64,000 nucleotides of DNA, taken from positions 1 to 64,000 of the forward strand of contig VFZE01000025.1 in assembly GCA_016871315.1 (NCBI GenBank), written 5' to 3'. Below, piece by piece: positions 60,649-64,000 of the stretch. The stretch's first letter is position 1. Every line of letters begins with the position of its first letter. A program made the translations under genes and the position numbers. This stretch comes from Acidimicrobiia bacterium. Lineage in GTDB: Bacteria > Acidobacteriota > Terriglobia > Bryobacterales > Bryobacteraceae. The notes under the pieces are model-generated. The model did no database searches, was not told the origin of the DNA, and worked only from the letters and a program-made list of their open reading frames with translations.

Positions 60649-62157
60649 TTGCTCCACCGCCTGCGAACTTCCATCGTCCCGGTGGCGGCGCTCCTGCTCA
60701 CCGCGTCGATTCTTGCCGCCGTGGTTTCCATTGGCGCCGTCCACACACGCTCCTATACGCCGGACATCTTCTTCGTCCTCAACGGCGCCTGGCGCGTCTT
60801 GAACGGCCAGATCCCGCACATCGATTTCTACTCCCCCTTCGGCCCGCTCATCTTCCTGCTGGTTGCCGCCGGCCTCAAGCTTTCTTCCTTCGGCGTCGAA
60901 GGTTTCGGCTACGGTATCGCCATCGCCGGCCTCCTCGTCGCCGCCCTCGGCTACCGCCTTATCACACGCCGCCTGCCTCCCCTCGCCTCCGTCTTCCTGC
61001 TTATTGATCTCGTCCTGCTCGCTGTCACGCCTTACCCGCTCGGCATGGATCCGGAACGCGGCAGCCACGCCATGTCCTATAACCGCATCGGCTATGCGCT
61101 GCTCGCCCTCGTCCTGCTCGAATCCTTCCACCCGGCCAGACACCGCCTGGACGCCTTCCTCGCCGGAGCAACCGCCGTCGCACTTCTCTTCCTCAAGGCC
61201 AGCTTCTTCTTCGTCGCCTGTCCTCTGCTTGCAATCAGCCTCCTCGGAAAACCCTTCCCCAAACACCGCCTCGCCCCGCTCGCCTCCGGAGCCCTCCTCT
61301 CCCTCGCTATCTTCCTCGCCTACCTCCGCTTCGACATTCCCGCCATCCTCGCCGACCTCCGCATCGCCGCAGCCGCGCGCTCCGGCGCTCTCTCCTTCTC
61401 ACTCGTCATCGATTCCCTCTGGATACACTCCTTCGACTTCATGCGCCTCGCCGCCATCCTCTTCATCGCACGCCGCCATGACTTCCTTTCTCTCTTCTAC
61501 GCCCTCGCTGTCCTTGGCGGCTCCCTCCTGCTTATGCTCACCAATAACCAGGGGCCTGTCCTGCCGCTGGTCGACGTCATCGTCCTCCTTCTTGCCGCCG
61601 CTGCTCCCCGCACAAAACCCGCTATCATCGTCGCACTGCTCGCCCTCGCTCCCGCCTTCTGGCAAGCCGGCCGCGATGTCTACGGGCTGGTTCAGGCCGC
61701 CATGGAACCAGCCGCCGCTCCCACGCTCTCCTCTCCGCACCTCGCCCGCCTCCACCTTTACCCCTACCAGGGCCCCTCGCCCGAACCGGAAGGCACCAAC
61801 GGCCGTTCCTTTGTGCATCACATCAACGACGGCCTGCGCCTTCTCTCGCAGCACGCCCGGCCCGGGGAAACCGTCGTCACACCCGAACTCGGCGACCCCT
61901 TCGCCTACGCCGCCCTCCGCCCGCCCGCACCGGGCGGCTTCGTCCTTCTCGCCTACGGCTACACTTTCAACGATCAGCACCGCCCCTCCAACGACAGGCT
62001 CTTTGCCGGCGCCGATCTCATCCTTCTTCCCAAACTAACCGTCATGACCGGCACCGATTTCGCCCACCACGCCCGCCTTTTCTTCCCCTACATCCAAGCC
62101 CACTTCCACACCATCGCCGAATCCGATGAGTGGTTCCTCTACCGCAAACGGCGCTAA
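60649..62157 (+). CDS. Polytopic membrane protein, GT-C glycosyltransferase-like
   Basis: A 502-residue protein with a TTG start. About ten membrane segments, with a conserved-looking first periplasmic loop YTPDIFFVLNGAWRVLNGQI and PHIDFYSPFGPL, where the Asp resembles the catalytic loop of GT-C mannosyl/arabinosyltransferases (DE/DD-type motif reduced to single Asp residues). A soluble C-terminal part (residues about 370-502, ending SDEWFLYRKRR) is outside the membrane. Substrate unknown. It lies directly before the microcompartment genes but has its own start signal. Confidence 0.6.
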   Translation: MLHRLRTSIVPVAALLLTASILAAVVSIGAVHTRSYTPDIFFVLNGAWRVLNGQIPHIDFYSPFGPLIFLLVAAGLKLSSFGVEGFGYGIAIAGLLVAALGYRLITRRLPPLASVFLLIDLVLLAVTPYPLGMDPERGSHAMSYNRIGYALLALVLLESFHPARHRLDAFLAGATAVALLFLKASFFFVACPLLAISLLGKPFPKHRLAPLASGALLSLAIFLAYLRFDIPAILADLRIAAAARSGALSFSLVIDSLWIHSFDFMRLAAILFIARRHDFLSLFYALAVLGGSLLLMLTNNQGPVLPLVDVIVLLLAAAAPRTKPAIIVALLALAPAFWQAGRDVYGLVQAAMEPAAAPTLSSPHLARLHLYPYQGPSPEPEGTNGRSFVHHINDGLRLLSQHARPGETVVTPELGDPFAYAALRPPAPGGFVLLAYGYTFNDQHRPSNDRLFAGADLILLPKLTVMTGTDFAHHARLFFPYIQAHFHTIAESDEWFLYRKRR

Positions 62158-62171
62158 CATCCCCCCTGCGC

Positions 62172-62177
62172 TATCCT
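62172..62177 (+). promoter_or_regulatory. TATCCT -10-like element before the microcompartment genes
   Basis: TATCCT, 8 bases before the ATG at 62186. Probable leaderless start of the PduS-PduT transcript. Confidence 0.35.
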
Positions 62178-62185
62178 GTGAGTTC

Positions 62186-63496
62186 ATGCTTTCCCAACTG
62201 TTGCGCCGCTGCGGCGTAGTCGGCGCCGGCGGCGCCGGCTTCCCCACACACGTAAAGGCGCAATCCCATGTCGAATTTGTCATCGCCAACGGTGCCGAGT
62301 GCGAGCCCCTCATCCACAAGGACGCCGAGCTCATGGAGCAGTACCCCGCTGAAATCCTCAGCGGCATGCGCGCCATGATGGAGGCAACCGGCGCGCCCAC
62401 CGGCAAGTTCGGCATCAAGACCAAGAACGCTGCCGCGGTTCAGGCAATCGAACCCCACCTCAACCGTCCCGCCATCGACTTCGTCATGCTCGGCGACTTC
62501 TACCCCTCTGGCGACGAGTACGAACTCGTCTACTCCGCCACCGGCCGCCTCATTCCGCCCGCCGGTATCCCTCTCCAGGTCGGCTGCGTCGTCAACAACG
62601 TCGAGACTCTCTATAACGTCCACCTCGCCACCCAAGGCGCGCCCGTCACGGGAAAATTCCTCTCCGTCTGCGGCGCTGTCCAAGAACCCAAATGCTTCTG
62701 GGCCCCCATCGGTGCTACCTTCCGCGAGCTGCTCGAAGCCGCCGGAGGGCCCACCGTCCCCCAGCCCGCTCTCTTCGTCAGCGGCATCATGATGGGCACG
62801 CTCACTTTCGATCTCGACGAGGTCGTCACCAAAACCACCGGCGGCCTCATTGTTCTGCCCGCCGATCACTACCTCATCACCCGCCGCAACCGCTCTCAGC
62901 AGGAGATGAACCGCATCGGCAAATCGGCCTGCGACCAGTGCAGCTACTGCACCGAATTCTGCCCCCGCTACTTGCTCGGCTACGAAGTACAGCCCCACAA
63001 GGTCATGCGCAGCCTCGGCTTCACCCTCACCGGCGGTGATATCTGGAACCAGTGGGCCGAGCTCTGCTGCGCCTGCGGCCTCTGTACCCTTTACGCCTGC
63101 CCCGAGGATCTCTATCCCAAGGAAGCCTGCGACCAGGGCAAGACCGACATGCGCGCCGCCGGCATCAAGTTTGTACAGCAGAAACCCGTCGAAGTCCATC
63201 CCATGAAGGAATACCGCCGCGTCCCGCTCGCGCAGCTACGCAAGCGCCTCCAGGTCGATCAATACGAAGCCGAAACCCCCTATTCAGACCTCACCCTCAA
63301 ACCCGCCCAGGTCCGCATCAAACTCAAGCAGCATGCCGGCGAACCCGCTGCCCCCACCGTCAACTCCGGCGACCGTGTCCGCAAAGGCCAAGTAATCGCT
63401 CGCGTCCCGGACGACAAGCTCGGCGCCGACATCCACTCCAGCATCGACGGCACGGTACAGCACATCGCCCCCACTTTCATCGCCATCGGAGCATAA
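62186..63496 (+). CDS. pduS: PduS-like flavin/iron-sulfur protein (RnfC-like)
   Basis: A 436-residue protein; the ATG at 62186 gives the start MLSQLLRRCGVVGAGGAGFP, the usual RnfC/PduS/NQO1 glycine motif, as opposed to a longer frame from 62126. The FMN region follows (FVIANGAECEPLIHKDAELM, NNVETLYNV). Two [4Fe-4S] sets: C249-C252-C255-C259 (CDQCSYCTEFCPRYL) and C294-C297-C300-C305 (CCACGLCTLYACPEDLY). A C-terminal barrel-sandwich region (VNSGDRVRKGQVIARVP, SSIDGTVQHIAP) closes it. In Salmonella PduS is a cobalamin reductase that contacts the shell protein PduT, whose homologue is encoded 3 bases downstream. Confidence 0.92.
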   Translation: MLSQLLRRCGVVGAGGAGFPTHVKAQSHVEFVIANGAECEPLIHKDAELMEQYPAEILSGMRAMMEATGAPTGKFGIKTKNAAAVQAIEPHLNRPAIDFVMLGDFYPSGDEYELVYSATGRLIPPAGIPLQVGCVVNNVETLYNVHLATQGAPVTGKFLSVCGAVQEPKCFWAPIGATFRELLEAAGGPTVPQPALFVSGIMMGTLTFDLDEVVTKTTGGLIVLPADHYLITRRNRSQQEMNRIGKSACDQCSYCTEFCPRYLLGYEVQPHKVMRSLGFTLTGGDIWNQWAELCCACGLCTLYACPEDLYPKEACDQGKTDMRAAGIKFVQQKPVEVHPMKEYRRVPLAQLRKRLQVDQYEAETPYSDLTLKPAQVRIKLKQHAGEPAAPTVNSGDRVRKGQVIARVPDDKLGADIHSSIDGTVQHIAPTFIAIGA

Positions 63497-63499
63497 ACA

Positions 63500-64000
63500 A
63501 TGGCCAAAAACTCCCTCGGTCTCATCGAACTCACCTCCATCGCCGCCGGCTTCCAGGTCTGCGACACCATGCTCAAGACCGCCGACGTCGATCTCGTCCT
63601 TTCCCGCTCCATCTGTTCCGGCAAATACATGGTCATGATCCGCGGCGACGTCGCCGCCGTCCGCGCCAGCGTTACCGCCGGAGTCTCCACCGGCAACTTC
63701 TCCATCGTCGACAGCTTCATCATCCCCAACCTCCACGACGCCGTCTTCCCCGCCATCAGCGGAGCCATCAAGCCCGCCGCCATGGAAGCCCTCGGCATTG
63801 TCGAATCCTTCTCCGTAGCCTCCTTGATTGAAGGCGCCGACGCCGCCGCAAAAACCGCCAACGTTCATCTCATGGAAATCCGCCTCGCCATGGCCCTCGG
63901 CGGCAAAGCCTTCGTCACTCTCACCGGCGACGTCGCCGCCGTCCAAAGCGCCGTCGACGCCTGCGCAAGAGTGATCGGCGAACGCGGCATGCTCGTCAAC
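63500..64000 (+). CDS. pduT: BMC-T microcompartment shell protein, PduT-like (3' partial)
   Basis: 167 residues are visible and the frame is still open at the window end. Two BMC domains in tandem: SLGLIELTSIAAGFQVCDTM ... VSRS-type strand, then ALGIVESFSVASLIEGADAA and VHLMEIRLAMALGGKAFVTL. Cys39 in SRSICSGKYMVM matches the PduT Cys38 (SKTICPGKF) that, three per trimer, holds a [4Fe-4S] cluster in the central pore. With PduS it would move electrons across the shell. As in PduT a short tail should follow beyond the window. The rest of the microcompartment locus is expected to the right. Confidence 0.95.
   Translation, partial: MAKNSLGLIELTSIAAGFQVCDTMLKTADVDLVLSRSICSGKYMVMIRGDVAAVRASVTAGVSTGNFSIVDSFIIPNLHDAVFPAISGAIKPAAMEALGIVESFSVASLIEGADAAAKTANVHLMEIRLAMALGGKAFVTLTGDVAAVQSAVDACARVIGERGMLVN

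Follow-up and report, generated by a model that had tools for sequence, protein, structure and literature searches.

The window, the whole stretch of DNA analysed here, comprises 64,000 bases (positions 1–64000 of contig C25, which is 81,709 bp long) of a Bryobacteraceae genome, G000, that is 98% complete. Two adjacent genes at its right end were predicted to encode a PduS-type oxidoreductase and a tandem shell protein of a bacterial microcompartment (BMC), as shown in Table 1. The open frame of the former spans 62126–63496, and translation from its probable start, an ATG that is kept in the aligned relatives, gives a protein of 436 amino acids. PduS has been defined by four Pfam domains (PMC6325248), all of which were found: PF01512 (Complex1_51K; E = 5.6e-42), PF10531 (SLBB), PF13534 (Fer4_17), and PF13375 (RnfC_N). 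Both tetracysteine motifs, CDQCSYCTEFCP and CCACGLCTLYACP, are present and are unchanged in 14 of 14 aligned sequences. Against RnfC, the protein scored 225.8, which is under the cut-off of 245.95.

Table 1. Predicted genes at the right end of the window.
Feature	Coordinates	Strand	Basis
PduS-type FMN/2x[4Fe-4S] oxidoreductase (predicted)	62186..63496	+	Pfam domains, two tetracysteine motifs, start and cysteines kept in relatives
Tandem BMC shell protein, PduT type (BMC-T)	63500..64000, on to 64051 of the contig	+	two PF00936 domains, PDB matches, Cys39

The gene of the shell protein begins with an ATG 3 bases past the PduS stop and is cut by the end of the window; in full it encodes 183 amino acids. 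The protein holds two BMC domains (PF00936; E = 1.2e-48) and is thus a tandem protein (BMC-T), and its closest PDB chains, 3NWG, 3PAC, and 3N79, are also tandem BMC proteins, the latter two being PduT. Chance matches to the BMC domain in BMC-T and to Complex1_51K in PduS are excluded by the E-values. Cys39 lies within ICSGKY and is unchanged in 28 of 28 aligned sequences, and CSGKY fits the published pore-cysteine signature of PduT, C-P/S/A-G-K/R/S-Y/F (PMC6325248). Because the score against the NCBI PduT equivalog TIGR02526 (124.8 bits) is under the cut-off of 250.3, the protein is named PduT-type rather than an equivalog. These results agree with the earlier note, which had described a PduS-like protein with both Fe-S motif sets 3 bases before a tandem BMC protein with a PduT-matching Cys39. 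It had placed both genes correctly in the stretch 62172–64000; position 62172 itself is out of frame with the likely PduS start.

The same note had read the pair as the left border of a BMC locus continuing to the right, and this reading had to be given up. The contig goes on for 17.7 kb to the right of the window, and searches with PF00936 and PF03319 up to its end found no shell gene other than BMC-T, including the stretch of about 15 kb downstream on which the claim of a locus had been staked; the pair is therefore not the border of one, and its identification as PduS–PduT stands. In the whole genome, PF00936 has four matches, namely the two halves of BMC-T, a single BMC-H on contig C43, and another on C62, and PF03319 (BMC-P) has three, all on C43, so that the shell genes are spread over three places. 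A satellite locus has a shell gene apart from the main locus and lacks one of the shell classes, and BMC-T is the sole shell gene on C25; PduS and BMC-T form a stand-alone two-gene satellite, away from the rest of the organelle genes. To the right of the pair lie genes for a carboxymuconolactone-decarboxylase-like protein, a cytochrome c protein, PQQ dehydrogenases, an amidohydrolase, and others, none of which is typical of BMCs. The PQQ-dehydrogenase and cytochrome genes were rejected as members of the unit because other copies of the pair are found without them alongside.

The remaining organelle genes fall into two units. Contig C43 carries a class II aldolase, BMC-H, and three BMC-P genes in one strand order, and C62 carries BMC-H, a CoA-acylating-type aldehyde dehydrogenase (ALDH), and a conserved 164-aa protein beside recJ. 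The main text of Sutter 2021 (PMC8217296) describes the acidobacterial ACI type as having a PF00596 aldolase, BMC-H, a BMC-P triplet, and an aldehyde dehydrogenase on a satellite. The same aldolase, BMC-H, and triplet were found here, as in most main loci of the family that were read, and ALDH lies on a satellite locus in this genome. Judged by its gene content, the compartment is predicted to be an ACI-like aldolase microcompartment, and the expectation that the pair belongs to an acidobacterial BMC rather than to a locus with PDU order was borne out. The ALDH–164-aa–recJ unit recurs in 22 loci of the family, with BMC-H ahead of it in nearly all. ALDH is nearest to acetylating acetaldehyde dehydrogenases (closest, 5J78). 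ACI aldolases have a C-terminal encapsulation peptide; the aldolase here runs about 45 residues past its FucA-like part, ending TREELIALVDEAVKARGVA, a stretch that may or may not serve as one. Its class points to sugar phosphates of the fucose/rhamnose type. Different from the ACI type, no hydroxyacid dehydrogenase (PF00389/PF02826) was found among the scanned neighbours of the main unit. The idea that an NAD-dependent dehydrogenase is conserved next to the main unit was rejected, since none recurs in the 20 loci read; a GFO/IDH/MocA-type oxidoreductase occurred in one genome only, among ten neighbours scanned. The scanned neighbours of the units also contained no alcohol dehydrogenase.

Two further features of the ALDH unit were observed. 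The C-terminal tail of ALDH (L009:11030-12787) is long and contains two helix-like stretches that resemble each other, SAAVEKFLAQRG and TAAVVDRFLAKKG; from their sequence, both look like encapsulation peptides. In every locus read, the 164-aa protein (L009:10539-11033, alignment A3) is encoded between ALDH and recJ; its C-terminus is conserved, about GGYFSxN. It matched no Pfam or NCBIfam family; its AlphaFold2 model is confident (pLDDT 89.8), and a fold search with it gave no convincing match.

In each of the 30 Bryobacteraceae loci examined, BMC-T stands next to PduS. Of 81 further PduS loci, several of them cut off by the end of a contig, 76 also contain a BMC-T, and the pore motif was found in 74 of the 75 BMC-T proteins beside PduS in these further loci, the exception being a split frame. 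Of 61 Bryobacteraceae genomes, 45 have BMC-P, and 34 of these also have a close PduS, versus 1 of the 16 that lack BMC-P (PduS+BMC+/PduS+BMC−/PduS−BMC+/PduS−BMC−, 34/1/11/15; Fisher p = 1.4e-6, not corrected for phylogeny). A phylum sample gave 28 of 106 versus 3 of 141 (28/3/78/138 in the same order; Fisher p = 1.2e-8, likewise uncorrected). The lone family exception, G025, keeps the BMC-H/ALDH unit. A close PduS is missing from 11 family genomes with BMC-P, ten having none and G028 a homologue of 48%; PduS is thus not required for the BMC type in general. Five genomes without PduS (G004, G009, G013, G021, and G042) have just two BMC matches each, with no tandem one among the rows read, and the pair therefore appears to be gained or lost as one. 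Over 21 genomes, PduS and ALDH distances correlate (r = 0.66, Mantel p = 0.0005). Vertical descent would produce such a correlation, which alone is no proof of interaction.

The nearest named relatives belong to Bryobacterales/Bryobacteraceae, followed mostly by Ignavibacteria/Melioribacter (about 57–65% identity) and then by Verrucomicrobia (about 48–55%). In most of these the stretch read again shows the pair with no further BMC genes around it, and many of the stretches end at contig ends. In G028, another member of the Bryobacteraceae, PduS–BMC-T directly adjoins a PVM-type aldolase locus composed of ackA, phosphotransacylase (PTAC), three BMC-H, three BMC-P, ALDH, aldolase, and DeoR genes. 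The pair likewise lies beside a complete PVM-type aldolase locus on three Verrucomicrobia contigs (L239, L256, and L258).

Searches of the whole genome gave no match to diol dehydratase (PF02286), glycyl-radical enzyme (PF02901), EutB (PF06751), or PduL-type PTAC. Of the cargoes proposed in the earlier note, propanediol and glycyl-radical types accordingly lack a match in this genome, and a fucose/rhamnose type is favoured by the class II aldolase.

PTAC (PduL) was found in just five of the 61 family genomes (G015, G028, G037, G058, and G059; L278-L282). In G028 it sits in the PVM-type locus; in the other four it has BMC-domain matches next to it, which suggests a second compartment.

With a probability of roughly 0.6, we propose that PduS–BMC-T is a detached satellite of the ACI-like aldolase microcompartment that re-oxidises NADH and exports electrons. 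The sequence shows what the parts are, to which families they belong, and how they are dispersed and co-occur; we infer the substrate, the encapsulation, and the direction of electron flow. Within the shell, the class II aldolase would split the phosphate of a deoxysugar, with fuculose-1-phosphate or rhamnulose-1-phosphate as the probable substrate, into dihydroxyacetone phosphate and L-lactaldehyde, and the CoA-acylating-type ALDH would oxidise the lactaldehyde, yielding NADH. PduS would sit on the inner face of the PduT-type trimer and re-oxidise this NADH via its FMN and its pair of [4Fe-4S] clusters; the [4Fe-4S] cluster of the pore would then pass the electrons to a cytosolic acceptor, so that NAD+ could be regenerated without alcohol formation. 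It is known that PduS homologues carry FMN and two Fe-S clusters, that Citrobacter PduS is reduced by NADH, that a PduT homologue holds a pore [4Fe-4S] cluster with an Em of +99 mV, and that PduS and PduT interact (PMC6325248). Compared with −320 mV for NADH, the potential of PduT suits an outward flow (PMC6325248). Given an NAD-dependent ALDH and units in which no alcohol dehydrogenase was seen, the simplest role is to re-oxidise NADH and export the electrons. Encapsulation of an alcohol dehydrogenase or a Pta encoded elsewhere in the genome could still occur; the genome-wide search covered PTAC of the PduL type.

Supply of reducing power within the shell to reactivate a radical cofactor, either B12 or a glycyl-radical activase, is a published role or proposal for the PDU and GRM homologues (PMC6325248), and 14 of 35 family genomes with PduS encode diol dehydratase, a glycyl-radical enzyme, or EutB somewhere. 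We regard this role as unlikely here, because the other 21, the present genome and 20 further drafts, match none of the three families, and because the pore cluster, should its potential resemble the +99 mV of Citrobacter, would be too oxidising for low-potential reduction. Still less likely is that PduS itself reduces aldehyde to alcohol in the shell and stands in for the missing alcohol dehydrogenase, as has been suggested for one GRM5 locus and Atribacteria by Axen 2014 (PMC4207490). The lack of an alcohol dehydrogenase among the neighbours scanned would fit such a reductase, but PduS is an RnfC/NuoF-like flavo-Fe-S protein with no alcohol dehydrogenase domain, and such a role would not account for why it is always paired with an Fe-S pore protein. 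The least likely reading, that the pair is a separate redox assembly or a relic with a job unrelated to the aldolase compartment, draws on the two genes lying alone, with no conserved neighbour but each other, and is opposed by the almost strict nesting of PduS in BMC-P genomes, the conserved pore cysteine, and the position of the pair beside aldolase BMC loci in G028 and in Verrucomicrobia.

Each part of the system is of a known kind. The pair shares domain make-up, adjacency, and pore cysteine with PduS–PduT of the Salmonella and Citrobacter PDU systems, but here it is a separate satellite in a genome with no match to diol dehydratase, EutB, or PduL-type PTAC. As in GRM loci, especially GRM5 with its fuculose-phosphate-type aldolase (PMC6325248), it is present without B12; the GRM systems differ in their glycyl-radical enzyme, to which the present genome has no match. 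PVM and PVM-like BMCs (Axen 2014, PMC4207490) are also built on a class II aldolase, and PVM loci with an adjacent PduS–BMC-T were found in this analysis (L164, L239, L256, and L258), whereas the main unit of the present genome has neither PTAC nor acetate kinase and its shell genes lie in three places. Ca. Solibacter usitatus is classed as PVM-like with split loci in the main text of Axen 2014 (PMC4207490). According to the main text of Sutter 2021 (PMC8217296), ACI-type BMCs occur mainly in subdivisions 4 and 6, compared with Bryobacteraceae here. Neither that main text, nor that of Axen 2014, nor the literature searched describes a PduS–PduT satellite in aldolase compartments; ACI members with one may already be drawn in the supplement of Sutter 2021.

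Ever since PduS–PduT turned up in B12-free compartments its role has been in question, and in GRM loci the activation of radical enzymes is a confounding factor. The genomes studied here couple the pair to an aldolase compartment, and no B12 diol dehydratase, ethanolamine lyase, or glycyl-radical enzyme could be detected in them; redox balance is left as the main candidate role and becomes a testable one. This soil acidobacterial lineage could therefore reveal the purpose of the predicted electron-carrying pore. More tentatively, and at rather less than even odds, PduS–PduT may be a portable electron-export unit of aldolase compartments that have no radical enzyme, PduL, or alcohol dehydrogenase; NADH would then be balanced through the shell instead of by alcohol, and a metabolosome would be wired to respiration. 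The case also suggests that the shells of one lineage are built from separate units of gain and loss.

Other arrangements were observed among the relatives. A DHDPS-family aldolase and a second kind of tandem BMC protein adjoin in seven of the seven loci read (L170:9455-11235, L166:9235-10880, L167, L168, L169, L171, and L191). Two copies of this second tandem type were read and have no PduT pore-cysteine motif, and no such BMC-T occurs in G000. This satellite, which like the PduS–PduT one is absent from the main text of PMC8217296, may supply the same shell with a further substrate. In Elusimicrobia (L253, L255, L264, and L271) and in L270, PduS–BMC-T opens a locus with PTAC, BMC-H, BMC-P, ALDH, and a second BMC-T.
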